64,000 nucleotides of DNA from Candidatus Nitrosocosmicus oleophilus (GTDB lineage: Archaea > Thermoproteota > Nitrososphaeria > Nitrososphaerales > Nitrososphaeraceae), in the NCBI RefSeq assembly GCF_000802205.1, contig NZ_CP012850.1, positions 2,692,587-2,756,586 on the forward strand, read 5' to 3'. Under the pieces are notes generated by a model. The model was given only the letters and a program-made list of their open reading frames with translations. It had not been told where the DNA came from and searched no databases. Positions 19,912 through 35,038 of the stretch are shown here, piece after piece (within the stretch, counting starts at the first letter, position 1; each line of letters opens with the position of its first letter). The translations under genes were made by a program, and so were the position numbers.

Positions 19912-19985
19912 GGGCCGATAGCTCAGCTTGGTGGAGCGTTCGACTGATAATCGAAAGGCCGAGGGTTCAAATCCCTTTCGGCCCA
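19912..19985 (+). tRNA. tRNA-Ile (GAT), integration target
   Basis: 74-nt cloverleaf. The acceptor GGGCCGA pairs with TCGGCCC and the D arm is GCTC/GAGC. The perfect anticodon stem TTCGA/TCGAA holds the loop CTGATAA, anticodon GAT. The T arm is GAGGG-TTCAAAT-CCCTT and the discriminator A; CCA is not encoded. No intron. Its 3' end is the left attachment site of the integrated element that follows, and the gene is kept intact because the element restores the same 3' sequence. Confidence 0.97.
19969..19985 (+). repeat. attL, 3' end of tRNA-Ile
   Basis: 17 nt AAATCCCTTTCGGCCCA at the end of the tRNA T arm and acceptor stem, repeated exactly at 31089-31105 and for its first 14 nt at 29209-29222. 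The position just before the integrase gene is typical of tRNA-targeting archaeal integrative elements. Confidence 0.88.
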
Positions 19986-20137
19986 TAAGGTATACGGGTT
20001 GAAATACTTCTTTATCAATAGTACACTTTCAAAGGAGTTGATTTAAGGTTCCAATTAAACTAGATACACTATTAGCAAAGGTACAAGATTTATCGATAAT
20101 AGAGAAGACAGATTTAATTAATCAATTCCACAACTTC

Positions 20138-21559
20138 ATGAGGAACAACAATTCCAGTGAAAGGCACATAATTAATAATATTAAAGTCATTTTGAATTTT
20201 GATAATTTCTTTCATCCTCTTAAGATTTTATCAGAAGCAAGTGAGAAAGATATTCACAACTTCTTGGATAGCAAGATAAAACCTGTTGGAATAGATCCAG
20301 AAAAGAAATGGATCACCACATGGAATCACTATCTGAATCATTTGAAGTTCTTCTTTAGGTGGCTGTATAATACAAAAGCAAAAAACGATGAAAATAACAG
20401 GAACTTTCCTGAATGGATAACTCCTGATTTTTTAAGAATAAAAATGAAAAGAACCAATAGACTTAGTCCTTATTCTCAGAATGATATATGGGATAGGGAA
20501 GAACTATTGACGATTATAAACTACGAGCCCTCAAAACGGAATAAAGCCGCTTTAGCGTTATTCTGGGACTTGGATGCAAGAAATCATGAAGTAACATTGT
20601 TAAAAATTAAAAATATTCGACTTAGAGAAAAATATGGAGAAGGCGAAGTTCCTCATGAGGCTAAGACAGGGACAGGTCCTATACTATTGACGCTTTCATT
20701 CCCTTATGTCAGAGACTGGCTCAATGAACACCCCTTTAAGAACGAATTAGATGCACGATTAATATGTAACCGAGTAACGGGAGCACCTATAAAATCAGAT
20801 GCGATGTGGACGATGATGAAACAACTTCAATCAAGAATTAGCAGAATAGTAAAATCAAATGAGATAAGAAATGTAGAAGAAAGGGAAAAACTAGAGTATC
20901 TTCTAAGAACCAAGAAATGGAATCCTTATTGTATCAGACATTCAGCAATAACAGCGGACAGCGATTACTTACCAGAGTATGCTTTAAAGAAAAAAGTAAG
21001 ATGGTCCATGAATTCAAAGCAAGGATCTAGATATATAAAAACAAGGATGGGTAACGAATTGAAGATTAAAATTTTAGAACATAATGGTATCATTTATGAT
21101 GATATGCAAAAGCAGAAATCATGTATAATAAATTGCCCTTGGAAAGAGCGCAATAGAACAAAAAGTCTAATCGGAGCAACAACAATGTATATTACTATAT
21201 GTTCCAATATTGAGAAAACAAAAGAGACATTATATAAGCATTCAAATCGATGCTATGTTTATTTCATCTCAACTAAAAATCCTAAGAATTGGATTGTTTT
21301 ATCTCAAAAAGGTAACTCCAACTATTTAAGCTACAGTATATCCGAAGAAAAGATAAAGAACTTAAGCAAACTACAGGTAACATCCAAATACCTCTGCCTT
21401 AAAGTCGTCCCGTCACTCAAGATATACGCACCACATTACATGTATTCCCTACTTTTTACATCTACTTCAAGCAAAATGGTTACCAATTTCACAAAAGCCG
21501 TTGATTGCTTTTCCGATTACAAGCATTATGAATTAAAAAGGTATCTTCTATGGTCATAG
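20138..21559 (+). CDS. Tyrosine recombinase (integrase), abnormal at both ends
   Basis: 473 residues from the ATG at 20138. The catalytic tyrosine-recombinase residues are present: Arg in LDARNHEV near residue 147, the R-H-S box in YCIRHSAIT near 267, a Trp in KVRWSM replacing the second His position, and Tyr in SRYIKT near 302. Two oddities. Upstream, 32 in-frame sense codons (20042-20137) read like more N-terminal protein but contain no ATG, GTG or TTG. After about residue 335 the usual C-terminal Cys-pair tail is replaced by an unrelated basic, aromatic segment of some 125 residues with its own internal Met. The protein probably catalyses integration at tRNA-Ile if still active. Its end overlaps the next gene by 10 nt. 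Confidence 0.82.
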   Translation: MRNNNSSERHIINNIKVILNFDNFFHPLKILSEASEKDIHNFLDSKIKPVGIDPEKKWITTWNHYLNHLKFFFRWLYNTKAKNDENNRNFPEWITPDFLRIKMKRTNRLSPYSQNDIWDREELLTIINYEPSKRNKAALALFWDLDARNHEVTLLKIKNIRLREKYGEGEVPHEAKTGTGPILLTLSFPYVRDWLNEHPFKNELDARLICNRVTGAPIKSDAMWTMMKQLQSRISRIVKSNEIRNVEEREKLEYLLRTKKWNPYCIRHSAITADSDYLPEYALKKKVRWSMNSKQGSRYIKTRMGNELKIKILEHNGIIYDDMQKQKSCIINCPWKERNRTKSLIGATTMYITICSNIEKTKETLYKHSNRCYVYFISTKNPKNWIVLSQKGNSNYLSYSISEEKIKNLSKLQVTSKYLCLKVVPSLKIYAPHYMYSLLFTSTSSKMVTNFTKAVDCFSDYKHYELKRYLLWS

Positions 21560-22713
21560 AGGATACCAATAAAGAATCTCTCATTAATAGTAAATCAAAG
21601 GACGAACTTTCCTATGCTAATTCGTCGTCATCCTCCTATCCATCCAGCCCCGCGTCCTATTCGGACGCGGCGGATAGTGCCATCAACCATTGGGAATCAA
21701 TCACCAAGATCAAACTTTCAAAGGGGCTCAAAAGAATAGCCAGGCTTGCATATAACATACATTTCAAAGAAAATAGAGGTCTTATCAGGCAGGACATTAT
21801 AGACCTAAAATATACATACACATACGCAAAGAAAATTTTGTATGAATGCCAAAGTAAAAAGCTTTTGATTCCCTTAAATGGATACAAAAAGGGAAGGTTC
21901 AATGAATACTTTTTGTCTACTATAATAGAAAGGTTCCTGGAGAAACAATCGGAGTCAAAAGGCAATGGTCAGATCGTAGATTCCAAGAATCCACCACTTT
22001 CAGTCATCCAGATATTGATTAATGAGATTACAGGAAGGAAGCCCCAGTTTCACAAATTTTTTATACACATTAAGATGTATGATCCTCTAACAGCAACAGT
22101 TGAACAAGTCGAAGACATTAAACAAATCTATTTGTCACTTACCAAGACTAAAGAATGGATTATAAAAAGCTCAAAGAATAAAGCCAAGGTAAAACAGTTT
22201 AGACTGGAACATAAGAGAAGTTGCACAGTCAAAGTTTATCCTAACGGAAAAGTAATAGTCGCAGTCGAATGTTCATACAGACAATTCAACTTATATGATA
22301 CTGGTGGTTGCCAGGAATTTTTTGAAACAGTGGGAAAGATTTCCTACATTCTAAGCCAGGAGTTTTATGGATCCTCTGTGGTGCCGCCGACAGGTGAATG
22401 GCTTCTAAAGCAATATGACCGAGATGTCACCCTCATCACATCGGAGTTGGAGAAAAAATATCCTCACATTTCACATTGGTATAGCAAGGAAGGTATCAAG
22501 ATAAGGGCTTTGGGTCGAGTGTTTCAGATCTACGGTAAGATTATGCCTATATGTGGAAGGTGTTTGCGAATAGAGGAGGATGTAAGTACCAAAGAAGACG
22601 TACCACTAGAAAAGGGCATAAAGGAAGCGATTGAAAGGCCTTTTGAAATAGCAAGTGCATTTGAGTTACTTCGTAGAGATAAAGATGATTCCGAAGGCAA
22701 AACTACCAAATAG
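21550..22713 (+). CDS. Integrase-coupled protein of unknown function, 387 aa
   Basis: ATG start inside the last codons of the integrase, implying one transcript and coupled translation. The N-terminus is Ser-rich and disordered (residues 1-45). Residues about 50-120 look like a winged helix (IARLAYNIHF, RQDIIDLKYTYTYAKKILYECQSKKLLIPL). A central mixed domain (about 150-290) holds VKVYPNGKVIVAVECSYRQF and EWLLKQYDRD. The C-terminus has a CGRC pair. No known catalytic motif. Its fixed place behind an integrase suggests a role in element replication, excision or regulation, which is inference. A GC-rich hairpin lies within its early codons and another 45 nt after its stop. Confidence 0.7.
   Translation: MVIEDTNKESLINSKSKDELSYANSSSSSYPSSPASYSDAADSAINHWESITKIKLSKGLKRIARLAYNIHFKENRGLIRQDIIDLKYTYTYAKKILYECQSKKLLIPLNGYKKGRFNEYFLSTIIERFLEKQSESKGNGQIVDSKNPPLSVIQILINEITGRKPQFHKFFIHIKMYDPLTATVEQVEDIKQIYLSLTKTKEWIIKSSKNKAKVKQFRLEHKRSCTVKVYPNGKVIVAVECSYRQFNLYDTGGCQEFFETVGKISYILSQEFYGSSVVPPTGEWLLKQYDRDVTLITSELEKKYPHISHWYSKEGIKIRALGRVFQIYGKIMPICGRCLRIEEDVSTKEDVPLEKGIKEAIERPFEIASAFELLRRDKDDSEGKTTK
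21650..21670. repeat. GC-rich hairpin 1 (8-bp stem, loop TATTC), inside a gene
   Basis: CCGCGTCC-TATTC-GGACGCGG, a perfect 8-bp inverted repeat with a 5-nt loop. It lies in the Ser-rich N-terminal coding part of the integrase-coupled gene. It resembles three other hairpins in this element in GC content, stem length and loop size. Confidence 0.85.
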
Positions 22714-22757
22714 TCTCAATATTTTACAGATTTCGGGTTTCTGATTTATTAGATTTC

Positions 22758-22778
22758 GCGCCGCCTACGCGGCGGCGC
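22758..22778. repeat. GC-rich hairpin 2 (8-bp stem, loop TACGC)
   Basis: GCGCCGCC-TACGC-GGCGGCGC, perfect 8-bp stem, 45 nt after the stop of the integrase-coupled gene. It could act as a transcript terminator or RNA-stability element, though it lacks a following T-run. Near-identical to hairpin 3 at 23331. Confidence 0.9.
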
Positions 22779-23093
22779 AATAACTATTGACCACATGCTA
22801 AAAGTATTTGTTATAAGTTGAATTCAGGTTAAACTTATTACTTGTTTATATGATAAGACTAGCAACCTGATACGACAATACCTGGAATCATAATCATGCT
22901 TTTGCTTCTCCTATCTCTTTTTCTTCAAAAACTGACTTGTTAGATTCTTGTGGAGACTGTGAATGAATGTTGTTCTAACTCTAATGCTATTTGTTTATAC
23001 TAATTGTGGAGTATGAGCAAGATGTTGCCAGGGTGAAGATGGAGTAATAATATGCTGTTGCCCAGGTAACCCTACCTGACTTTCAGATTCCCT

Positions 23094-23258
23094 TTGTTGA
23101 GAGCCTTTCGGGCCTATGTCAAGCCCATTGGGGAGAAGGTCTTTTATCGTGTCGAGTGGTCACTTGAGCCAAATAAGCCCATCAAAGAAGCCTTGGAGAC
23201 GATTAGGAAAGAAGTTAGGTTAAATAGAGAATATTTGATGGAATTTTTATTGACTTAA
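23094..23258 (+). pseudogene. Protein remnant, about 54 codons
   Basis: Open frame from TTG 23094 to TAA 23256-23258, with codon use richer in G/C than its surroundings and protein-like content (AFRAYVKPIGEKVFYRVEW, then EALETIRKEVRLNREYLMEF). It has no recognisable promoter or better start and sits between two GC-rich hairpins. It looks like the C-terminal piece of a larger gene brought in from elsewhere. Family not recognised; a short real gene is the alternative. Confidence 0.4.
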
Positions 23259-23330
23259 TGTTTTGTTACTTTTTTCGTAATTAGATTTTATTGAAGTTGC
23301 CCTGTATGATTCTTTCTTCGCTAGTGTTAT

Positions 23331-23351
23331 GCACCGCCTACTCGGCGGCGC
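23331..23351. repeat. GC-rich hairpin 3 (8-bp stem, one mismatch, loop TACTC)
   Basis: GCACCGCC-TACTC-GGCGGCGC, same as hairpin 2 except for one A/C mismatch in the stem and one loop base. It lies between the gene remnant and the convergent histidine kinase, 93 nt past the kinase stop. Confidence 0.88.
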
Positions 23352-23443
23352 TACACTCTTTCATAGTTTGTACAAGATGAAAACAATCGAGATATTTTAT
23401 AATTCTAGTTTAGTATCATATGAGAGTATGATGTCGACTTTAT

Positions 23444-24481
23444 TCAGTTGGTATCTGTATAACTTGATCGCTCATTTAATGGCAAACTAAACGAGAAGGT
23501 TGCTCCTTTTTCATTCTTGTTGTTTTGAGCAGAGATTCGACCCCCATGTGCTTCAATAATGGCTTTGCAGATATAAAGACCAAGCCCTATTCCACCAGTT
23601 TCAGTTCCAGTAAAGAATTTTTCGAAGATTCTAGAAATAAATTCAGGGTTTAAACCCTTGCCAGAATCTTTTACCTTGATAATTATTTCTTTAGTATGGT
23701 TAAAATTGTCCGTATCTGTATTAGTTACGTTTGTACTAATAGTAATAACTATCTTACCACTGTCGGTAAATTTAATTGCATTATCCACAAGGTTGATGAG
23801 TACTTGAGCAATTCTATCCTTGTCAGCTTCTACAATTACATCTTTGCTTACTTCCTTAGGGTTAGATCTAGTATCATCATACAGTAAATCCACATTTCCT
23901 TTACTGGCTCGAGTCCGATTTCTGAAATCTTGAACAACTGTCGATATCAGGGTGGGTAAACTGAATTGCTCTTTGTACAATTGAATAGTAAGATTATCTA
24001 TTGTTGCCATGTCTAATATGTTGGAAATAAGCTTTTGAATTCGAGTTGCGTTTCTGACTATGATTTTAATATATTCGATATTAGTGTTTGGTTCAGATAT
24101 TATCATCTCACTGTACCCTAATATTGATTGAGTGGGGGTTCTTAATTCATGAGCTGTGATATCTATAAACTCTTTTTGCTTCAATGCTAACTGCTTTATC
24201 TGTTCGTTAGCCATAGCAAGATCTTTAGTTACCTCTATCATTTCGTTATTCATATTTATGAGGTTCTGGTTTGTTTCAATCAGTTTATTATTGGCTCTAA
24301 TAAGACTCTGCTCCGTTTCTGTTAGATCTTTTTTATATCTTTTTATATCTTTTACCTTTTGGTCGATATCGACATTTGCAAGACGAAGAGACTCGTTTGC
24401 TTCTCTGAGGTCTTCGGTCTTTGCTATTAATTCTCCCGTTTTTATTTCAAGAAGTTCTTTTAAGGATAATCTTTTACTCAA
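23444..24481 (-). CDS. Soluble histidine kinase
   Basis: 345 residues, TTG start. Residues about 10-105 form a long coiled coil rich in Leu, Asn and Lys with heptad-like repeats and no membrane segment. The HisKA box KEFIDITAHELRTP has the phospho-accepting His111. The ATPase part has an N box (LINLVDNAIKFT), the G1 box DSGKGL, the F box FEKFF and the G2 box GGIGLGLYI. It looks catalytically complete. Without an input domain, the coiled coil may receive a signal from a partner. No response regulator is adjacent; the nearest is at 30622. Genes of this type are numerous in soil Nitrososphaerota. Confidence 0.9.
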   Translation of the reverse strand: MSKRLSLKELLEIKTGELIAKTEDLREANESLRLANVDIDQKVKDIKRYKKDLTETEQSLIRANNKLIETNQNLINMNNEMIEVTKDLAMANEQIKQLALKQKEFIDITAHELRTPTQSILGYSEMIISEPNTNIEYIKIIVRNATRIQKLISNILDMATIDNLTIQLYKEQFSLPTLISTVVQDFRNRTRASKGNVDLLYDDTRSNPKEVSKDVIVEADKDRIAQVLINLVDNAIKFTDSGKIVITISTNVTNTDTDNFNHTKEIIIKVKDSGKGLNPEFISRIFEKFFTGTETGGIGLGLYICKAIIEAHGGRISAQNNKNEKGATFSFSLPLNERSSYTDTN

Positions 24482-24949
24482 TTTTTGCTCCCTTTCCTCT
24501 ATAGATATGGCTAATCGGTAGATATTATGAAAACAACTTTATATAATTAATAAATCATAAAAACAGGCAGGTTGTAATTGTAACCCATGCTTATACTAGA
24601 ATGAAGTCATACAATAAACCTCTATATCACTAGGGGTTTGCCCTCTAATTATGTGGTTTTTATCAAATATTCATATGGAAAAAAACATCGCGATAATTTA
24701 TTATTTATTTCAGTTTAGCATCTAATGTCGTCTTCGATATAAGGTATATTATACTTGTATGATATGGACTCTATTTCTAAAAATATTACTCCGTTGGCTA
24801 ACAAAATTGTCACCATTATAAGGACTTTTTTTAATGTCAAATTTGTTTCACAAACCTATTGTTAGTGAACCTACTGTTAGCATGAATGGGATAAATACTA
24901 AAAATATGGAAGATGAATTCTTAAAATGACGACCTAAGCAACGAATTCA
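24482..24949. other. Gene-free interval
   Basis: 468 bp of A/T-rich DNA between the histidine kinase start and the end of the ferritin-like gene. I see no coding frame, hairpin or repeat. It should hold the kinase promoter. Confidence 0.45.
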
Positions 24950-25447
24950 TTATGAAACTGCCGCTTTTGCCATATCGATACATTGAGTAAGATGTCTTTG
25001 TTCTTCTTTTAGGATAGATTTTACTGTTGATAACGCCTTTTTATTATCAAAGTTTCCACAAATAGCCTGCAGCACTTCATAATGAGTCACCTCTCCACCT
25101 TCAGCTAAACACAAGAATTCTAATGCTTCTGGTGTATCAGGCTCTTCACCAAGATAGGTTTTCATAATTTTAGTTGCTTTCTCTTCTGTTTCTTTAGCAC
25201 TTTCCTCTACTTTTCCAATATCCAATCGGACATCTTTATCATCAGAAAAAATACTTACCACTTCTTGAATTTTTTCCTCATGTGTACTTGCCTCTTCTTG
25301 GATTTCTTCTGCTTCAGTTTTGGAATTAGATTTTAGTAATTTCATCGATACTAGTTCAGTAACTGCTTTTTGAGCTGCTCGTTCCAATCCTAGAACTTCA
25401 CCCAATTTCTTTTGAAGATTTTCTATGTTTTCTTTTTTGTTTGGCAC
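24950..25447 (-). CDS. Ferritin-like helical protein (DUF892/YciE-like)
   Basis: 165 residues, all-alpha. The sequence begins with an amphipathic helix (NIENLQKKLGEVLGLERAAQKAVTEL) and has regularly placed Glu and His residues, including STHEEKIQEV, EGGEVTHYEVLQAICG and KEEQRHLTQCIDMA. Paired Glu/His positions on four helices are what a di-iron ferritin-like fold such as DUF892 would show. Relatives are stress-associated. Metal binding is inferred from the pattern and not certain. Single gene in the element, probably cargo. Confidence 0.6.
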   Translation of the reverse strand: MPNKKENIENLQKKLGEVLGLERAAQKAVTELVSMKLLKSNSKTEAEEIQEEASTHEEKIQEVVSIFSDDKDVRLDIGKVEESAKETEEKATKIMKTYLGEEPDTPEALEFLCLAEGGEVTHYEVLQAICGNFDNKKALSTVKSILKEEQRHLTQCIDMAKAAVS

Positions 25448-25522
25448 TGGACTCTCATATGTATAAAAATTTAAATAACTCCACTGTGAATTTATTTTTT
25501 GTCCAAGTATAATGCTATCAGT

Positions 25523-25764
25523 CTAATATCTTGAGTTTTCTGAGATGGCTCCAGTAACTATGTGCATTCCAATGCCTAGAATCAAATTGAGATAATAATT
25601 ATCATTGATCTTACTTATTGCCATTCCTCTCGCTATGGATAAGTCATCTAAAGGAATTCCCACCACACATGTTGTAAGAAAAGGAAAGGATACATGAGGA
25701 TGCTTGCAATGACTCCTCCTGACGCTCCAAGCAATATGGTTCTGACTATTCTTTGATGTATCAT
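25523..25764 (-). pseudogene. Frameshifted small membrane protein gene
   Basis: Reading from ATG 25764 gives 38 hydrophobic codons (TILLGASGGVIASILMYPFLFL) and then a stop. Shifting frame near 25655 continues with VVGIPLDDLSIARGMAI and NLILGIGMHIVTGAIS to a stop at 25523. The 242-nt span is not a multiple of three, so one indel explains it. The two pieces together resemble a small polytopic membrane protein. Inactive unless the indel is an assembly error. Confidence 0.6.
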
Positions 25765-26305
25765 AGAAATACCACTTTCATTTTTAAATGTCCTTTCCGC
25801 AGATTTGCCTTATAGTTAATCTAAAATTCTTTCTATTTTATCTTCAATACTTTCAATCAGTTAATTATGCAATGTTTCATATTTTGCCATTTCAAAATTG
25901 GTACTAAATTGGTTAGCTTATTGGAATCCTGCCACCACTATGAACTTAATCCTTCCGGATAAGAAACGTTACTGATAAACTTTACTTAGGTAATTAGATA
26001 ATCTTGCTTTTAAAAAAAAATATTTCATTATTCTTCTCTTGACTAGTAGTGTATTTAAAATCAAAGATGTAAAATTGTTTATATGATTTGAACTTTATTA
26101 TAAATATTACAATAAATAAATTCTACCTTCTAAAAGTATTAATAAATTTTATACCAACGTATATAAAATGATTATCTGGATTGTATAGCGTTGGCAAGGA
26201 AAATAAAACTCGAAGTCATCATTCCAATAAACAAAAAGAACAAAAGCAATACACAGTCATTGTTAAGATAATAATCGGGATAACAGTGGGACGTGCTAAT
26301 TATTA
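25765..26305. other. Gene-free, decayed interval
   Basis: About 540 bp between two pseudogenes, extremely A/T-rich (near 26010-26160 almost only A and T). No intact frame is supported. It may contain the worn-down 5' part of the zinc-finger pseudogene that follows. Confidence 0.4.
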
Positions 26306-26467
26306 GACCCCGTTTTTGCTTTTGGATATGGCAGTAAACTCCGATCCAATACTAAGAATAAACATGGTACAAAGCATTTTAAGAGCACCTCACATCCAGT
26401 TATAAAATCGTATGAACCCGGTGAATCTTGGAAATGGTGTTATGTGGATGAGTTATTTATAGAGTAG
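26306..26467 (+). pseudogene. 3' remnant of a UBP-type zinc-finger protein gene
   Basis: Forward frame without a start codon, ending at TAG 26465-26467. The last 38 residues follow the C-terminal half of UBP-type zinc-finger proteins: NKHGTKHF, SHPVIKSYEPGESWKWCYVDEL. The N-terminal half with the first Cys pairs is missing upstream, and the GHVGCCD-like part is eroded to GYGSKLRS. A truncated, non-functional copy is the simplest reading. Confidence 0.6.
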
Positions 26468-26568
26468 AAGTTATAGTATATATGATTAACGAAGTTGATA
26501 TTGAAGCAATAGAATGGTAACAAATATTGAATCCTGCCCGATTAGGCTGTTTTTACTTCTGGTATCAA

Positions 26569-26847
26569 TTATTCAAAATCAAACATATCATCAAGTCTTT
26601 CATTTTCCTTAAATGGCTTTTTATAATAATAATAATCATTTTCAAGTTTATTGTCCTGATTTTCGTCAACTGTATCTTGAAAATCCTTGACCTCTTGTAT
26701 TTTTATGTCTCCACGATCAGTAAAGTCAAATATAGTATCTGAATTATCTTTACCTAACCAAATGCCTTCACATTTTGGACATTGATCTATTTCTTTGTCA
26801 TACTGTGATGTCATTCTCAATTCCAAAAAACAGTGGGGACATTTCAT
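26569..26847 (-). CDS. zf-TFIIB-type zinc-ribbon protein, 92 aa
   Basis: The N-terminal MKCPHCFLEL and IDQCPKCEGIWLGKDNSD form the zf-TFIIB zinc ribbon found in many small archaeal and bacterial proteins. The remaining 50 residues are acidic and low complexity with a YYYYKK run, probably disordered. ATG start at 26847. Function unknown; likely nucleic-acid or protein binding. Stand-alone in the element. Confidence 0.78.
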   Translation of the reverse strand: MKCPHCFLELRMTSQYDKEIDQCPKCEGIWLGKDNSDTIFDFTDRGDIKIQEVKDFQDTVDENQDNKLENDYYYYKKPFKENERLDDMFDFE

Positions 26848-27188
26848 AGGGGAACTAATTAATATTTAGTTCATTCTTTATTACACTTTCTAATAGTCAA
26901 TAGCAATAAACAAGACGATCTAAATCTTTTATATTTCTTGATAATTCTTGGAGTTATTTACCAAATTAACTAGAAAATTACACTAAAGTAAATAGATTAA
27001 TCGTTCGATCTTCTTCAGTTAGAGATTTTGATTTGTAAAAAGATTGGCTAACTTTTTAGAACAGGTTTTGGATTTGTTATTCCTCTATACACACAATGTG
27101 TCTCTGCACTAGCACTTTTGGCGACAATACTATAGTGATAGTAAGAATGGTATCAAGTAGTTAGATAGCCTCCCCACCTGACTTGTAT
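26848..27188. other. Gene-free interval
   Basis: 341 bp, A/T-rich, with no supported frame. It contains the upstream region of the zinc-ribbon gene and the 3' end of the next operon. Confidence 0.4.
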
Positions 27189-27632
27189 TCAATCGTAACT
27201 ATTCTGCGCCGAAGCGTCTTGACTTTCTTCATTATTATTAGTACTGGTGGAATCTTCAATTTCACTAGTTGAATTGGTCTCATCCTCTTCTTCTTTTTTC
27301 TTAAATGTAAACCATTTATCTTTATCTGCTATATCGTCTTTGACTAGACCCTTTCCGATACCTGATATAATGCCCGTAATTTCTGGACTAAAATCCTTAA
27401 AAGTGTCGGCTATACCCATTGATGTTCCAACCTCGCCATGGTGGACCCGTCTATTCTTGATGTACACTTTGCCTGGTTTTTTTTGAGAATTCCACCTTGA
27501 TGTTATTGCATCTCCTATCGATTCACCTAAAGTGACATATTTTTCGTAATCAGATGATGAAGTTGAGGAGGATTTTACATCATCCTTATCCTTTAAAGAT
27601 TTATCTTTGTTGGGGTCTTTTGGTTTATTCAT
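27189..27632 (-). CDS. Hypothetical protein with disordered ends, 147 aa
   Basis: ATG at 27632 overlaps the stop of the upstream PRC-like gene (ATGA), so the pair is translationally coupled. A hydrophilic, Lys/Ser-rich N-terminus (1-30) and an acidic Glu/Ser/Thr/Asn-rich C-terminus (110-147) flank a folded middle with YIKNRRVHHGEVG, a hydrophobic ITGIISGIGKGLVKDD segment and WFTFKK. I recall similar PRC-barrel-linked proteins in related archaea, but no function is known. Confidence 0.65.
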   Translation of the reverse strand: MNKPKDPNKDKSLKDKDDVKSSSTSSSDYEKYVTLGESIGDAITSRWNSQKKPGKVYIKNRRVHHGEVGTSMGIADTFKDFSPEITGIISGIGKGLVKDDIADKDKWFTFKKKEEEDETNSTSEIEDSTSTNNNEESQDASAQNSYD

Positions 27633-27877
27633 TTCTTTATTTCACGACATTGTAGACTTTCAGATTCTTCCTTTGTCATCCTAAACAATATGTTATAGCA
27701 GTCAATCTTTTCAGTTAGAATTCTTTGTATAGCATATGCTACTTTGCCAACCACACCTGATTGTGTAATTACTTTATCTCTTAGCACATCTTGGACATCA
27801 CCTAAGCCCGTATCATCAATTCCTCTAGTCTCTTTCCTAATTACATTTTTCCAATCAATGCTATCCTTATGAGCCAT
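27629..27877 (-). CDS. PRC-barrel-like small protein, 82 aa
   Basis: Residues 6-55 follow the PRC-barrel pattern: IDWKNVIRKETRGIDDTGLGDVQDV, then a strand with VITQSGVVGKVAYAI, resembling small archaeal PRC-barrel proteins that bind partners through a six-stranded barrel. The C-terminal part is divergent and ends early for the family. ATG at 27877. The first gene of a coupled pair with the downstream 147-residue protein (4-nt ATGA overlap). Confidence 0.6.
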   Translation of the reverse strand: MAHKDSIDWKNVIRKETRGIDDTGLGDVQDVLRDKVITQSGVVGKVAYAIQRILTEKIDCYNILFRMTKEESESLQCREIKK

Positions 27878-28032
27878 ATTTGTTTATGTTTAACATGTAA
27901 TAAAAGAATGGACACATCTTTTTGAATAGATATGGAATTATCTGTCCTACACATATTCTCTAATCTTATCGAATTTCGATCTTTGAATTAATTGTCCCCA
28001 AACAGTCAACGGAACACATCTCATTTACCTCA

Positions 28033-28055
28033 GCGCCGCGCTTTAGGCGCGGCGC
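28033..28055. repeat. GC-rich hairpin 4 (9-bp stem, loop TTTAG)
   Basis: GCGCCGCGC-TTTAG-GCGCGGCGC, a perfect 9-bp stem, 11 nt past the stop of the PriCT-like gene (reverse strand) and between two reverse-strand transcripts. The strongest of the four hairpins. It may stop transcription from the PriCT-like gene. Confidence 0.9.
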
Positions 28056-28066
28056 AACTAATCAGA

Positions 28067-28417
28067 TTAAGCCATTTGGATTATCTCGTACTTTACTAAT
28101 AGACTATATAATTCGGGTTGTTCTTTTTTCAAGGTTTCTTTTGATGATGGTAAGAATGATTTGACATTCTTTAGTCGAATATTAACTTCTCTTTGAGGAT
28201 TAAATTCTAATTTTCTTAGTTTATCACATTTTTCTAACCAGTCTTTCAGTATAATGCTCGCCTCCTCTTTTGACATTTTTCTGATTTTAATAAGATAGGG
28301 ACATAGAATCCGCCACAGGCAATACTTTCTGTAGTCATCAAGAGGTTCTAAATCTGTAATTAGCGATTGAATTTCAATATAAATTATGATCGCTTGATTA
28401 TTATCGTAACAGGTCAT
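28067..28417 (-). CDS. PriX/PriCT-like replication protein, 116 aa
   Basis: Helical protein with the pattern YRKYCLWRILCPYLIKIRKMSKEEASIILKDWL in pieces: an aromatic-basic helix (YRKYCLWRIL), then CPYLIKI, then KEEASIILKDWLEKC, and a C-terminal RLKNVKSF and KKEQPELYSLL. This order matches the PriCT-type helical domain found at the C-terminus of plasmid primases and as the stand-alone PriX subunit of some archaeal primases. Without a primase catalytic subunit nearby, its role here is inferred to be element replication. Its ATG overlaps the stop of the broken coiled-coil gene upstream. Confidence 0.55.
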   Translation of the reverse strand: MTCYDNNQAIIIYIEIQSLITDLEPLDDYRKYCLWRILCPYLIKIRKMSKEEASIILKDWLEKCDKLRKLEFNPQREVNIRLKNVKSFLPSSKETLKKEQPELYSLLVKYEIIQMA

Positions 28418-28549
28418 ATATTTTGATTTTTTTCTATCAGCCTTACATTATATTGTTCTAATTCCTTTAACGCTTCTTCAATCTCTTTTTCCAATCTGCT
28501 CGCATATCTTTAACTCCTCTTCATCAAGCCTTGTAAATCTACCAGCCAT
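28414..28549 (-). pseudogene. Frameshifted small coiled-coil gene upstream of the PriCT-like gene
   Basis: From ATG 28549 the frame reads MAGRFTRLDEEELKICE, then hits a stop. The next frame continues with SRLEKEIEEALKELEQY and ends in TGA overlapping the ATG of the PriCT-like gene (ATGA). The 136-nt span is not a multiple of three, so one indel near 28500 breaks it. The retained ATGA coupling shows that the two once formed an operon. Confidence 0.55.
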
Positions 28550-29182
28550 TCCTGTGAACCTCAATATTGCGTTTTTGGTATCTAAACTTTTTTATGTCAA
28601 TAGTTGATCACATCAATAAAGACTTGCTTTCACGGGGCACATATGTTCCTCAAACATTCATAAAGAATTTTTGCCATACATAGAATATATTTGGTTAATT
28701 ATGGATAGTCTTGTGTCTCAAGAGACACGCTCTAATTCTTGCAAAAAAATGTTTAAAGAAACTAAACAGACAATGTTAATTAATTGCTAACAGTATATAG
28801 CCAACTCAGGTTTAAAAGATCTATACCTGTAGACTCACAGAGGATGTATTACCATTAAGTACATCGAGTTAAAACCCTGTAAATAACGAAGGCAACATTT
28901 TGATCTTGATGATCCAATATACCTTATGGATTCGAAGCCCCCTGACTCCGTCTCCGATCTGATAAAAAATCAGTATTCATATCCTAGCTATTATACCATC
29001 CTAAACATAATCCAGACCAACCCTTGCAATATTACATTTTTACTTTGCGAAGGCCTAAAAATTTAAAACTAACTTTTATAATAACAGTTCTATTGAACCC
29101 TTTTACCTACCCTACTCAAACCCCCTTGGGCCTGCGACTTCATTGTCGATTATTTGACCTATCGCGATAAGCCTTCACTAAT
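28550..29182. other. Gene-free interval with a short palindrome
   Basis: About 630 bp with no supported gene. At 28713-28728 there is a perfect palindrome GTGTCTC-AA-GAGACAC that could be an operator for a dimeric regulator. Patches with higher G/C near 28940-28970 and 29100-29150 do not read as protein. Confidence 0.4.
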
Positions 29183-29222
29183 ATGTGAACCCCCTACTAT
29201 AATATTTTAAATCCCTTTCGGC
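29183..29222 (+). repeat. Internal attachment-like repeat (att2)
   Basis: ATGTGAACC followed 26 nt later by AAATCCCTTTCGGC. Both parts recur at 31062-31105 with the intervening bases also similar. The last 14 nt equal the tRNA-Ile 3' end but then diverge (ATCC rather than CCA). It marks the junction of two elements or an older right border. Confidence 0.75.
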
Positions 29223-29333
29223 ATCCGATCAAAATGTGACTTTTTAATGGCTTTAGTATTTAATTTTGACTTATGATCTTTTGGTCTATACTTCTCTTAA
29301 AAATTGTAATAACAACACTTTACTTCTATCCGC

Positions 29334-29426
29334 AATTGACATCATTTGGAGATAAAAGACTATGAATGTTCTTTTTATGGAATACTAGATATATGTTTAT
29401 ATAAACAAGTGAGTAGTAGAAAACTG
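29334..29426 (+). promoter_or_regulatory. Conserved upstream region of a secreted-protein gene
   Basis: 93 nt that align without gaps, with 7 mismatches, to the region before the paralogous gene at 34945. It contains AATTGAC-TCATTTGGAGATAAAAGACT-type blocks and the palindromic TATA box TTTATATAAA at 29396-29405, 21 nt before the ATG. That spacing predicts a leaderless transcript starting at or near 29427. Confidence 0.8.
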
Positions 29427-29675
29427 ATGGATACTAAAATCAGTTTAGCGGTAATTACAATCGTTGCCGTATCAATGGCATTATTTCCATTGATAGTAAA
29501 TCAATCTGCAAACGCAGTAACTAAGTGTGAAGACGAAAGTGGAAAGTCCCATCCATGGATAGAAGGATGTAAACAAGGTTGGTATGATCATGACCATTGC
29601 AAGACTTATAATGGAGGGACCGGCGAGGTAGCCAAGGGATACAAAGTAGGTTGGTCAAAGGGTAGTTGCAAATAA
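29427..29675 (+). CDS. Small secreted Cys protein, paralogue 1
   Basis: 82 residues from the ATG at 29427, set by the TATA box at 29396. An upstream TTG frame from 29346 runs through the promoter and is rejected. The N-terminus is a signal peptide (MDTKISLAVITIVAVSMALF, cleavage probably after the NAVT or SANA region). The mature part has four cysteines in KCEDESGK, GCKQGWYDHDHC and KGSCK, plus a repeated G-Y/W-K-V-G-W-type motif. Likely an extracellular or cell-envelope protein with disulfides. It shares roughly 60% identity with the protein at 34697. No function known. Confidence 0.8.
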   Translation: MDTKISLAVITIVAVSMALFPLIVNQSANAVTKCEDESGKSHPWIEGCKQGWYDHDHCKTYNGGTGEVAKGYKVGWSKGSCK

Positions 29676-29839
29676 CTAAATCCATATTATTTTCTATTTA
29701 TTCAAATTTTATAACTTGAAGATCGCAATTGGGATTAAATGGATTGTAAGCTTGTATGGTATATGCATTCAAATTTAGATTTCTTTTAGCATAATCTAAT
29801 AAATGAAATAGACAGAAAACTCCTAAAAAAAGAATAGGT

Positions 29840-30115
29840 TTATCGTTGACCTGCTGCGTTGTTGCCGTCATTTAGCTTCAATAACAAAGCAACGTTATTA
29901 CATGATGCTAATGTGTTATTATTGGAAAAAAATTCTGCATTCTCACCTGTAAAACTTTCTTGAGTGATATCTTGGAAAGGATCATTTGATTTCTTTTTTG
30001 TTGCAAAGGCTGCCTTGTTATCTCCAACAATGGCTACTATAGAATCAATCATTGCCGCTGCTACGAACATGATTCCAAATATACCAACTTTTTGATTTTT
30101 TGTTTGGTAGGACAT
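29840..30115 (-). CDS. Small secreted protein, SCNN family-like, 91 aa
   Basis: ATG at 30115. The N-terminus has a charged start and a hydrophobic stretch (VGIFGIMFVAAAMIDSIVAIV) followed by AFATKK, a plausible signal peptide cleavage region. The mature part contains NTLASCNNVALLLKLNDGNNAAGQ, a pattern I recall from a family of small Nitrososphaerota surface proteins with SCNN and GNNA motifs. This copy is shorter and lacks the more N-terminal Cys seen in such proteins. Probably extracellular. Confidence 0.65.
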   Translation of the reverse strand: MSYQTKNQKVGIFGIMFVAAAMIDSIVAIVGDNKAAFATKKKSNDPFQDITQESFTGENAEFFSNNNTLASCNNVALLLKLNDGNNAAGQR

Positions 30116-30321
30116 TTTTATTACAAATCATAACTAAAATCATATTTATCATAGTTGGACACTCCAAGCCCTGCGGTTTTAATAATGGATAAAATTCGGT
30201 ATAGTTTAACGTCTTGATAATTCTATAACAAAAGGTCAGAAAATATATAGTCAAATTTGACTACAAATTGGAGTTCAAATCATAACAGGAGGTAGAAGGA
30301 ATTTGTAAGTTACTCTAGTAA

Positions 30322-30559
30322 TATTTAATCCGACAAATTTTATTTAATTTTATAAATATAATAAAATTAAACCTGGGTTCGATGATATACTTGATTATTA
30401 AACGCATCTAAAAATTCGGATGATTTTTTTACTTGACAACTCAATCTCTTTTTGTCATAATTTGCATAGTAATGCTTCGACCTATTCTTTATATTCCTCA
30501 ATTCCAGGAGACTCAATAATTATATTTGAAAATTAAAATAAAATTTGTCGGATTAAATA
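30322..30559. repeat. Inverted-repeat-bounded segment (MITE-like)
   Basis: A terminal arm of about 30 nt at 30322-30351 (TATTTAATCCGACAAATTTT core) is repeated in inverted orientation at 30529-30559 with a single one-base gap. The 238-bp segment has no gene. This is the structure of a miniature inverted-repeat transposable element or of an IS remnant. Alternatively it could be a large dyad regulating the response-regulator gene 63 nt downstream. Confidence 0.7.
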
Positions 30560-30621
30560 GTTTCTTTTAATATTTAAATTTTGATTAATATTTATAAGTT
30601 TGTTCAATAATACGATTTACA

Positions 30622-31014
30622 TTGAAATTACTGGCAATCGATGACAACATCGACATTACTAGGTTAGTGGCGGAGTATTGTAAGAGGGAGAAAATTGATT
30701 GTAAGGAGATCAACGATGGTGAAAAGGGATTGTTTGAGATCCAAAAGCGGCATTATGATTTAATACTTTTGGATGTTGCAATGCCATTTTACACAGGATT
30801 TGATATATTAAGGCAATTGAAAAAACAAGGTGTGCGTCATAAACGCATAGTAATATTAACTGGCTACAATTTGAAGATAGAGGGTATCGCAGACTATATG
30901 GACGTTGGAGTAAGAGAAATTCTTAAAAAACCAATAGGATTTGACCGCTTTGATATGGTTGTGAAAAGTTATTTGACTAACGAGAAGAGGCCGATCCATC
31001 AAGAACACAAATGA
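30622..31014 (+). CDS. Single-domain response regulator (CheY-like)
   Basis: 130 residues; a receiver domain only. Acid pair Asp7/Asp8, phospho-accepting Asp51 (in LILLDVAMP), Thr80 (ILTGY) and Lys103 (KKP) are all present, so it should be phosphorylatable. There is no output domain; the C-terminal tail is short and basic/His-rich. The TTG start at 30622 follows A/T-rich DNA. The cognate kinase is unknown; the complete kinase of the same array, at 23444, is a candidate, which is inference. Confidence 0.92.
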   Translation: MKLLAIDDNIDITRLVAEYCKREKIDCKEINDGEKGLFEIQKRHYDLILLDVAMPFYTGFDILRQLKKQGVRHKRIVILTGYNLKIEGIADYMDVGVREILKKPIGFDRFDMVVKSYLTNEKRPIHQEHK

Positions 31015-31061
31015 TCTATTTTGACTTTGATAAGACACTGCAATAATACACTTCAAATTAC

Positions 31062-31105
31062 ATGTGAACCCGCTTACCATAAGGATTTAAATCCCTTTCG
31101 GCCCA
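31062..31105 (+). repeat. attR, right border of the element
   Basis: ATGTGAACC at 31062-31070 and the 17-nt AAATCCCTTTCGGCCCA at 31089-31105, the latter an exact copy of the tRNA-Ile 3' end. It shares the ATGTGAACC part with the internal copy at 29183, which the tRNA lacks. Confidence 0.85.
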
Positions 31106-31150
31106 CTACTAAGTTGTCCCTTTATTTACGCGCAATGATCGTAACATTAT

Positions 31151-31387
31151 GTGATCTTAGAGGTTAAATGGATCCAAGAATTTAGTACTAATCCTGTGGA
31201 ATTATTTACAAATGCTTCAAAATCTCCTGAATCACAGAAGCAGTATCCAAGAACCTTTAAGATGTTTCTGGATTTTATTGAATTAGGAGGTATTAATATT
31301 GAGGAACAACCCATATCTACTTTTTCTCGTCACAACATATTGGAAGCAATTGAGGGACGACAACGATACCAGGGTCAGATGAAATGA
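31151..31387 (+). pseudogene. N-terminal fragment of a second integrase
   Basis: 78-residue frame (GTG start) that resembles the SAM-like N-terminal core-binding domain of a tyrosine recombinase: WIQEFSTNPVELF, then SKSPESQKQYPRTFKMFLDFIEL. It ends 250 codons short of a catalytic domain. It lies 46 nt after attR, the place where an integrase stands behind tRNA-Ile in the intact element, so it is probably the left end of an older element. Not similar to the intact integrase. Confidence 0.55.
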
Positions 31388-31560
31388 ACCCTAATTTGGG
31401 TATGATGATTAATTATTTAAGAATCGAGTACCACAAGAGATTCTATTACCTGACATCTACCTTTTACTGTCATACCATATGCCGACTTTCCTGTGGCATC
31501 AAACATTAAGGAAAGCATATAAAAGCTTCATAATTTATGGTTTTGAGATTTAGATCAAAA

Positions 31561-33279
31561 CTAATTTATCGGGAGACTGAATCGAATTGTTGCTCCTTTG
31601 CCATTTTCGTTATTTTCGGCCCACATTTCTCCACCATGCCTTTCAATAATATTTTTAGCCAAGTATAAGCCCAATCCTAAACCATCTCGAGAATCGGCAA
31701 CAAATTTAGAAAACAATCTTGGAAGAATCATTCTATCTATTCCAGTTCCATCATCCATTATAGTTACGATAACAAAACATTGATTCTTGTCACCATTTTG
31801 ACTACTACTTGATCTGGTCGTCTCAACTAAAATCTTAATATTATTAGAATTTGGTATGTCTACTGCGTTAGTGATCACGTTTTCAATCGTGAATTTTATT
31901 CGATTTTTGTCTGCGTTTATCATCATGCTATCAACATTCGTAGAAATGCTCAAATTTTTTTTGGTAATGGATAAGATATTTTTTTTGATTTGTTTAGTAA
32001 TGTCTCTTATCAATTTCACCAGATCAAATGTTTCTTTATTTAGGATGAAGGTTTCATTTTCTATTTCTGTAATAGCGATCATATTATTCACATGTTTAGC
32101 AAGTTTTTGCGCACATGCATTAATTATGTCAAAAACGTCACCGTATCTACTGAATTCTTCCTTCTTCTCAACTAATATCTCGGAAAACCCTAAAATCGGT
32201 TGCAATGGGTTTCTCAACCCGTTGGCAAAATTATGAACGAATTCCTTTTGCAACTTATCTTGTAATTTCAGTTGGGTGATTGCCATTTCTGATTTCTTGT
32301 AAATTTCATCCTGACGCCACAACATTTCAAGAATTGTATTATAAGTAGAAACGACTGAACCACTATTAGAATGGATAGTAAAATTAATATCATTTTCAAA
32401 TATACAGCGAGATATATCCTCAAAATTTTTGAGTTCTGAAATAAATAATTCTTTTCTATCTACAGTCAAAATCATCAGGTCTCGAGATAATTGGAAGTTT
32501 ACCGCTTCTTTAGTCATATATTTTATTCTTACATCATAATCTTGACTGATGTGGCTAAACCCTGTTAAAGGAGCCGTTCCATTAATCGAACCATTGGTAA
32601 GAACTATTATTATTATTTTTATATCTTTTAATTTACTCTTAGAAATATGTATTATGATTTCTGAAATTTTTTGCACTATCCTTTCATTAGGAACATCGCC
32701 TTCCGATGCAGAGTAAAAAATACATAGCTCCTTAACTAACGACCTTAGGGCCTGTTCATATTTTGTCGTAATGCTATTTTCATCAGTTATAAGCTCACAA
32801 ACATCTCTTTCAAGTCCCTGCTCAATCTGTTTAACCCTAATCTTTGCTGGAATTGCCTTTTCCCACAACATGTCAAAAATGAGTCTCTGTTGTTCTACCA
32901 GCCACTTATTCTTGCTATAAATATGAATCGGATTGGAGTTGGGGCCATCATTTCTCGATTCTAAGAGACCTAAATATTCAAAATCATTTATAATTATTCC
33001 GCCTTGAATGTTGTCTAAGTGTCTTAACTCTACAATTTCAGATATCTTCTTACAACTTCCTATGTTTGCATCTTCTATATTTGTAATGTATCTGACTCTT
33101 TTACCCAGATTTCTTAAATTTCTGATGCAGCCTCGAATTACTTCTGACTCTAAAATCAACGGTGTTCGGTCGGTAATTCCAAAACCATCTAAATGATTCA
33201 CTGCGTTATAGAGCAACCGAGTAAAACTCTTGGTGATATCCTTTTGGTTATCAAGAATCCTAAAAGAAGACAATATCAC
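31561..33279 (-). CDS. Histidine-kinase-like protein lacking the phospho-accepting His
   Basis: 572 residues, GTG start. An N-terminal region (1-320) of alpha/beta sensor type resembles archaeal regulators that bind ligands (LESEVIRGCIRNL, GGIIINDFEYLGLLES). A HisKA-like helix has FANGLRNP at 351-358, where the canonical pattern is H-E-L-R-T-P. The His (Asn353) and the Glu (Gly354) are both changed. The ATPase part keeps G1 (MDDGTGI), the F-box region and G2 (DGLGLGLYL), so ATP could still be bound. His349, four residues upstream, is the only nearby alternative acceptor. Probably an ATP-binding sensor or pseudokinase; ligand unknown. Confidence 0.82.
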   Translation of the reverse strand: MILSSFRILDNQKDITKSFTRLLYNAVNHLDGFGITDRTPLILESEVIRGCIRNLRNLGKRVRYITNIEDANIGSCKKISEIVELRHLDNIQGGIIINDFEYLGLLESRNDGPNSNPIHIYSKNKWLVEQQRLIFDMLWEKAIPAKIRVKQIEQGLERDVCELITDENSITTKYEQALRSLVKELCIFYSASEGDVPNERIVQKISEIIIHISKSKLKDIKIIIIVLTNGSINGTAPLTGFSHISQDYDVRIKYMTKEAVNFQLSRDLMILTVDRKELFISELKNFEDISRCIFENDINFTIHSNSGSVVSTYNTILEMLWRQDEIYKKSEMAITQLKLQDKLQKEFVHNFANGLRNPLQPILGFSEILVEKKEEFSRYGDVFDIINACAQKLAKHVNNMIAITEIENETFILNKETFDLVKLIRDITKQIKKNILSITKKNLSISTNVDSMMINADKNRIKFTIENVITNAVDIPNSNNIKILVETTRSSSSQNGDKNQCFVIVTIMDDGTGIDRMILPRLFSKFVADSRDGLGLGLYLAKNIIERHGGEMWAENNENGKGATIRFSLPIN

Positions 33280-33446
33280 TCTCCGATGTTAAATAAATCG
33301 TGATTTTAATAAGTGGGTTTACTTGCATATTTTTAACTGACAAATGATGTTGTTAATATTATTTATTAATTAAACATCGACATTTTTGAAAACCAAATTG
33401 TTTTTGTTTCTTAAAATTCATAGATCAATAGTTCATGGGTGTTTTC

Positions 33447-33635
33447 TCAATTGTCTTCTACTTTCTGCATCTTACTTCTTATATTATCAATTAGTGATGG
33501 TGTGAAATCATTTGAATTTAGATTATGGTCTCTTTTTCCATGCTCCATAACTTTTTTTATTATTTCTGTATCATTATCTTCCACTACTACATAATCACAA
33601 TCAAATCCTACATCACGGCATTTGAAACTTAGCAT
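33447..33635 (-). CDS. DUF1059 family protein, 62 aa
   Basis: ATG at 33635. The sequence follows the DUF1059 pattern closely: MLSFKCRDVGFDCDY at the N-terminus, VMEHGKRDH in the middle and TPSLIDNIRSKM at the end. Members are small cytosolic proteins of unknown function, often in signalling-rich archaeal and bacterial loci. It is upstream of, and in the same direction as, the kinase-like gene (167 bp gap). Confidence 0.85.
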   Translation of the reverse strand: MLSFKCRDVGFDCDYVVVEDNDTEIIKKVMEHGKRDHNLNSNDFTPSLIDNIRSKMQKVEDN

Positions 33636-34696
33636 TCGTTAACTTAGGAAACGCATTTAAAATGTTTATGGTTTAATCATGATTAACATCATATAAACAA
33701 AACTTAAATTAACTCAAATAGACCAGAAAACTAAATTCCACTATATTTTTGAAATCCCTTTCCTTGTCTTTTCGCCCAATTTTATGAATGATCAAACAAT
33801 CAAAGAAATAGATAGAAAATATTGCAATAGTAACCAAAATTTATCCCAATTTTGTATTGGATACCTTTCGACCCTTTGAAGAAAAAATATAGTGTTCTCG
33901 TATCTAGTTAGTACGATTAAAAGCTAGTATGAATATGTATTTAGAATTTCAAGATTGCCCTTAATTGGACAAATTCTAATTCGGGTAGAAAATAGATGTA
34001 ATAACTCAGTTGCATTTAGTATAGAAAACCAATTGTCATAGTGAAAAGTAAAGTAAGTGAAATTGACAAAGTTATTCTATTTAGGAAATTCTTTGGATCC
34101 TGTAGAAAATTCTCTAAACCAGAGATTTGAATATGAAAAATTATGTAATTTATGTAATTCCAAATGATAAGGACCATCGATGAGAATCAAATCCTAGGAA
34201 CCTCTTAACCACACTAGACGCAGTGATATTGAAAATAATAGAGGAATGAATGAAAAAAGTTATTTTGGACAATTTGCAAATAGATAAACAAGATAAAAAA
34301 AATTAAGTAATGCACGGATGAAATTTAAAATGCTTTTAGGATTGGATATAAGTTGGATTTTCCTGACGCTAAAAGATAGCAAACTGAACCTGAATGTCTA
34401 AATGAAATGGAGAGACAGGGGTTCATAATCTTGAAATTCAGACTGCAACAACGTAAAGCGGTATTGGTATTGTTTATAGTGTGGAAGAAATGAGAATCAG
34501 CTGAATTAATAACAGTACTCAGTCAAAAGAGAAATAACATTTCTTGCGAACCAATTTTCATCCATTTGGCTGAGATCGACATTGGCAACACTTTAATCGT
34601 GATGCATTGTTTTCAGATCCAACTAGAGAAACTTCAAAAACACGATTTAGTACTTATTTTATGAAAAAAAACAAAAAAGATTTTAGTGATATGTGA
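33636..34696. other. Gene-free kilobase with a possible degraded att copy
   Basis: 1061 bp without a supported gene. At about 33740-33762 the text CCACTATATTTTTG and AAATCCCTTTC resembles the internal att2 region, though the match stops before GGCCC. Around 34170-34220 there is a weak tRNA-like string that does not fold. The rest is A/T-rich and looks decayed. Confidence 0.4.
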
Positions 34697-34945
34697 TTAG
34701 CAGCTACCCTTTGCCCAACCTACTTTATATCCTTTAGCATAGTCGCCAGATCCTGGTGAATATGATAAGCAATGGTCATGATCGTACCATCCATCTTTAC
34801 AACCGGTAATCCATGCATGGGGTTTACCTGACTGGTTCTCACATTTAAATGATGCAGCATCTGCATTTTGAATCATTATCAATGGGGTCAGTGCCATTGA
34901 TGCGACTGCTAATGCAATTACTAATGAACTTATTTTAGTATCCAT
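34697..34945 (-). CDS. Small secreted Cys protein, paralogue 2
   Basis: 82 residues from the ATG at 34945, chosen by the TATA box TTTATATAAA at 34967-34976. The signal peptide has the hydrophobic LVIALAVASMALTPLI with NADAAS at its end. The mature domain repeats the layout of the 29427 gene: KCENQSGK, GCKDGWYDHDHC, GYKVGWAKGSC. It lies outside the att-bounded element and in opposite orientation to its paralogue. Probably extracellular; no known function. Confidence 0.8.
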   Translation of the reverse strand: MDTKISSLVIALAVASMALTPLIMIQNADAASFKCENQSGKPHAWITGCKDGWYDHDHCLSYSPGSGDYAKGYKVGWAKGSC

Positions 34946-35038
34946 CAGTTTTCTACTATGCACATGTTTATATAAACATATATCCAGTATTCCAGAAAAG
35001 GAACATTCATAGTCTTTTATCTCCAAATGACGTCAATT
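34946..35038 (-). promoter_or_regulatory. Conserved upstream region of paralogue 2
   Basis: 93 nt that match the 29334-29426 region with 7 differences and no gaps, including the TATA box at 34967-34976. DNA identity here (about 92%) exceeds protein identity of the two products, which points to selection on regulatory sequence or to recent copying of the upstream part. Confidence 0.8.

Follow-up and report, generated by a model that had tools for sequence, protein, structure and literature searches.

The analysis of the window, the whole 64,000-nucleotide stretch of DNA from the soil ammonia-oxidising archaeon Candidatus Nitrosocosmicus oleophilus (positions 2692587-2756586 of a single 3.43-Mb contig), supported the serial insertion of at least three mobile elements behind one tRNA-Ile gene, where they are now decaying. 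The locus was interpreted as integrated elements accreted in tandem against the tRNA-Ile 3' end, with unrelated types re-using one tRNA, at a probability of approximately 0.8. The target, the attachment-site (att) copies and the layers were located as follows (G numbers denote other genomes of the genus):

19912..19985, forward strand: tRNA-Ile(GAT), the integration target (ARAGORN; Rfam tRNA, 72 bits)
19969-19985, forward strand: copy L1, the last 17 nt of tRNA-Ile (repeat search)
19986..29222, forward strand: E_A, 9,237 bp, with a type-A tyrosine integrase; missing in G012 and G002
29183..29222, forward strand: L2, right arm ATGTGAACC and tRNA-Ile core TTTAAATCCCTTTCGGC, the E_A/E_B junction
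29223..31105, forward strand: E_B, 1,883 bp, without an integrase
31062..31105, forward strand: L3, right arm and perfect tRNA-Ile core, the right end of an 11,120-bp insertion
31106..33875, forward strand: E_C, a 2,770-bp older remnant with a type-C left arm; common to G012 and partly to G002
33861..33875, forward strand: L4, a decayed fourth copy ATACCTTTCGACCCT; the chromosome resumes at 33876, as in the empty sites of G005 and G007

The last 17 nt of tRNA-Ile are repeated exactly at 31089-31105, and 14 nt are repeated at 29209-29222, as the initial annotation had reported. The core TTTAAATCCCTTTCGGC is common to both downstream copies, L2 and L3. The ATGTGAACC block, which was said to precede both downstream cores and to be missing from the tRNA, was confirmed by repeat comparison; it starts at 29183 and 31062, 26 and 27 nt before the core. 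A search of the 3.43-Mb genome for TTTAAATCCCTTTCGGC with no more than one mismatch returned only the three copy sites and a reversed control returned zero, so the repeats are not common elsewhere in the genome. A chance origin of the repeats was ruled out by this genome-wide count and the empty control. The initial description of three att copies and two tandem segments was accurate as to the copies, but the array is longer, with a fourth copy (33861-33875) and a third layer. The copies do not form the graded series proposed, as there is no simple age gradient: L2, the nearest to the tRNA, has lost the end of its core, whereas the L3 core is perfect and its right arm near-consensus. Counterparts of L4 are present in G012 and G002.

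The locus was located in 14 other genomes of the genus via the NAD kinase adjoining tRNA-Ile. In the closest relative, G012, the DNA before tRNA-Ile directly adjoins the counterpart of 31106 onwards. The joined window flanks 19985/31106 aligned with G012 (519/582) and G002 (404/508), and the joined flanks 19985/33876 aligned with G005 (432/527) and G007 (392/500). As the flank junctions are joined in G012 and G002, 19986-31105 represents an 11,120-bp insertion missing in these two genomes; as the tRNA joins 33876 in G005 and G007, 31106-33875 represents an older insertion missing there. The comparison of occupied and empty sites, suggested with the initial annotation, thus showed sites empty up to 31106 in one pair of relatives and up to 33876 in the other. 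None of the E_A or E_B genes follow tRNA-Ile in these relatives, and no genome without the integrase was found to carry the same genes past the tRNA. The 11.1 kb may alternatively have been excised precisely from G012, instead of never having been there.

The left arm differs in type from copy to copy, matching A behind L1, D (degenerate) behind L2 and C behind L3. The proposal that different elements had used one tRNA gene repeatedly was borne out by these different arms, by the empty and partly empty sites and by a tandem junction on one contig of G013. The tyrosine integrase of each element would recombine attP of the element with the 3' end of the tRNA, so that the last ~17-20 nt of the tRNA also remain on the right-hand side. 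As integration would restore the tRNA, it would be usable again. The first arrival would be a type-C element that entered before the lineage separated from G012 and of which 2.8 kb (31106-33875) is left. Next would come, in one step or two, the 11,120 bp between the tRNA and E_C, consisting of the 1.9-kb E_B with its type-D-like left arm and the 9.2-kb E_A with its type-A integrase. The core and a common right-arm motif are shared by different integrase types, which would allow unrelated elements to stack. The layers, the empty sites, the att copies and the gene damage are observed, whereas the order of arrivals inside the 11.1 kb, binding of integrases to the arms and any present-day excision are matters that we infer.

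E_A contained the following features:

19986..20008, forward strand: type-A left arm TAAGGTATACGGGTTGAAATACT; integrase-A loci have it conserved after the tRNA 3' end
20048..21559, forward strand: type-A integrase gene (weak XerA_Arch match; PHROG integrase)
21550..22713, forward strand: orf387, conserved in other type-A elements (54-58% in loci L124 and L151)
23444..24481, reverse strand: histidine kinase (HisKA and HATPase_c), cargo
28067..28438, reverse strand: 116-aa protein with a PriX domain, the C-terminal stub of a 360-400-aa primase-like protein
29094..29132, forward strand: right attachment module of tRNA-Met type, in which 16 nt match the tRNA-Met 3' end exactly

The start codon of the E_A integrase is GTT, compared to GTG in G013, and the C-terminal zinc ribbon is disrupted; the catalytic part is alignable to relatives. 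The primase-like protein is whole in L126 and L131, and the L139 copy reaches the contig end; in E_A, no trace of it was found beyond the PriX domain. E_A was considered probably defective because the integrase lacks a start codon and an intact zinc ribbon and the primase is cut to its PriX domain, and judging from these lesions it has probably lost mobility by its own means. A winged helix at the orf387 N-terminus is suggested only; the N-terminus gave a weak MarR-like match, and the predicted structure was of low confidence (mean pLDDT of 58) with poor fold matches. E_A encodes an integrase, although the gene is damaged, and is bounded by att direct repeats, consistent with a cryptic integrated element. 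No viral structural or conjugation genes were detected in E_A by Pfam, PHROGs and NCBIfam scans; as conjugation genes were absent from the Pfam/NCBIfam results, E_A was not classed as an integrative-conjugative element. An SSV-type (suicidal) integrase element was ruled out, as the gene lies entirely downstream of the tRNA and its alignment to relatives is continuous. No defence systems were found in E_A, E_B or E_C.

E_B contained the following features:

29227..29245, forward strand: degenerate type-D left arm GATCAAAATGTGACTTTTT behind L2 (position weight matrix (PWM) score)
29346-29675: secreted-protein gene
29840-30115, reverse strand: small 91-aa protein
30322-30559: inverted repeat
30622-31014: response regulator

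E_B lacks integration and transfer genes and has kept its attR (L3). On the attL side, the L2 core is shortened and the type-D-like arm is degenerate; a type-D matrix trained without this arm gives an equal or higher score at a fraction of 0.0008 of random window positions. The match is suggestive, as the arm types were drawn up after the sequences had been inspected. E_B is most likely a relic resembling a cis-mobilizable element (CIME), which lost its integrase, kept its att ends and could be moved only together with a neighbour or by a helper integrase. The genes of E_B are host-like, and relatives of the response regulator occur at places that look chromosomal. The secreted-protein gene region (29334-29676) is a diverged inverted copy, upstream region included, of the region 34693-35038; the related gene there (34697-35026) is part of the ancestral tRNA-Ile flank. 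The E_B copy was not placed by a secreted-protein gene tree. The inverted repeat, initially annotated as MITE-like, is real, but MITE identity was rejected: it calls for multiple copies, and with no other copy in the genome nothing supports it.

E_C contained the following features:

31151-31387: N-terminal fragment of an integrase
31561-33279, reverse strand: histidine kinase

The integrase N-terminus begins 46 nt past L3, where a truncated and unrelated integrase had been noted, and resembles an integrase family other than that of E_A. In G002, the integrase of the equivalent element is a pseudogene. A two-component signalling gene is present in each of the three layers (23444-24481, 30622-31014 and 31561-33279).

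Because L2, nearer the tRNA, is more decayed than L3, E_A and E_B may represent one composite arrival of 11,120 bp, extending from L1 to L3, in which L2 would be the vestigial internal att site of an earlier fusion. The observed decay is the reverse of the age order expected for E_A after E_B, and counts against that sequence of events. The joint absence of both segments from G012 and G002 is also consistent with a composite, as is the combination of an intact core and near-consensus arm at L3 with a lost core end at L2. However, like other element ends, that of E_A at L2 comes with a complete right module and a tRNA-Met module, and a degenerate left arm follows directly after L2, although either point would still be compatible with a composite. 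We thus regard a single composite arrival as possible but somewhat doubtful.

E_B could also be a non-autonomous mini-element moved in trans by the integrases of co-resident elements. E_B is flanked on each side by an att core plus arm and has no integrase, its right arm is common to several element types, and integrase-less att-bounded segments of 2.0 kb and 4.8 kb are present in G002 and G010, respectively. However, none of the 15 Nitrosocosmicus genomes yielded a second copy of E_B as a unit, the short segments are unrelated in gene content, and the left arm of E_B is degenerate. Deletion of an integrase would yield the same picture, and the segment is explained at least equally well as a relic without its former integrase; trans-mobilisation was thus considered unlikely. 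The host-like genes of E_B, one of them a diverged copy of the flank gene, would accord with repeats that arose through chance or host rearrangements and no mobile array at all, but this is highly improbable given att copies unique genome-wide with a control of zero, exact empty-site junctions that contradict it, and an integrase adjoining the tRNA.

The suggested comparison of the ATGTGAACC block with other att sites identified a right-end motif found genus-wide. The motif, TGAACCC-NN-TTACC (TGAACCCNNTTACC), had 44 matches in the 15 Nitrosocosmicus genomes compared to one in the reversed control, and after most matches comes a tRNA-Met- or tRNA-Ile-like core. In G013:C74, reverse-complementing the right arm ATATGAACCC gives exactly the common left-arm core GGGTTCATAT, so the left arm probably has its mirrored counterpart in the ATGTGAACC block, where the integrase would bind. 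The type-A integrase family is present in 52/70 Nitrososphaeraceae genomes and in 12/12 genera, behind Ile, Arg, Lys, Ser and Met tRNAs. At several type-A loci, the core, left arm and integrase occur without a preceding tRNA; in their arrangement, such loci would be as expected for internal att sites or free attP. The search for far att copies at other tRNA loci found one, an internal copy in L153. Integrase relatives were absent from viral contigs, and plasmids gave one distant match.

The tRNA-Met module of E_A is perfect, sits 90 bp before L2, and is the sole genomic copy besides tRNA-Met itself. Met-type and Ile-type modules are likewise ~90 bp apart in G002:C1, with weaker pairs in G008 and G013. 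One right-end module (the motif plus a tRNA core) might serve several unrelated integrases, so that E_B-like cargo spreads in trans, and right ends with two modules (Met and Ile, ~90 bp apart) might allow a switch of target; we offer this tentatively and consider it rather improbable. If the motif is indeed recognised by several integrases, this would explain the spread of integrase-less cargo and signalling genes in soil ammonia oxidisers. The motif can also serve to locate element ends throughout the genus.

Cryptic integrated elements (CIE) of Thaumarchaeota have been surveyed (Krupovic et al. 2019, PMC6563490), and that survey included strain MY3 (ThaMY3-E2), probably of the same species. 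E_A resembles the CIE described there in its tyrosine integrase by a tRNA 3' end, direct-repeat att sites, signalling cargo and lack of recognised virus or conjugation genes; it differs in its damaged integrase and primase and in the stack of three layers. Tandem accretion with CIMEs has been reviewed for bacteria (PMC5704250). The present locus similarly has an integrase-less, att-ended segment beside an integrase element at one tRNA, and a target common to distantly related integrases. In contrast, it is archaeal, conjugation genes were not seen, the left att of E_B is degenerate, and mobilisation of E_B is putative. Archaeal tandem proviruses and arrays formed by re-use of one site are described in two reports (PMC6563490, PMC8371274), and this locus has in common with them that several elements used a single site repeatedly. 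The thaumarchaeal tandem examples named there are near-identical proviruses or casposons, whereas three different left-arm types are present here. Stacking is itself a known habit of such elements, and the array is ordinary in kind but unusually well resolved via relatives lacking each layer; its less usual points are the right module common to the elements and the pairing of modules. Successive integrations at one archaeal tRNA can be read here layer by layer, and two of the steps have empty sites in relatives.

Comparable stacks were found at tRNA-Met and tRNA-Ile in other Nitrosocosmicus species. On a single contig of G013, a right arm and tRNA-Ile core occur without a tRNA, and an open type-C integrase ORF of 468 aa comes next; the same ancestral flank TTGAAGAT adjoins a second attR. 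As several comparison genomes are fragmented, the full G013 stack would be one pieced together from separate contigs. A tRNA-Met stack in G002 (L225, G002:C3, 3278-12343), which closely parallels the present array, comprises an element with an open type-C integrase, followed by the 2.0-kb integrase-less att-bounded segment. The 4.8-kb segment in G010 (L227, G010:C11, 185-4984) lies between two tRNA-Met-type att modules, without an integrase, and encodes receiver-like, histidine-kinase-like and sensor-like proteins. In G004 (G004:C1:1449503-1470862), tRNA-Ile and an attR-like site are ~21 kb apart, and the distal end of this interval carries a type-C-like integrase.
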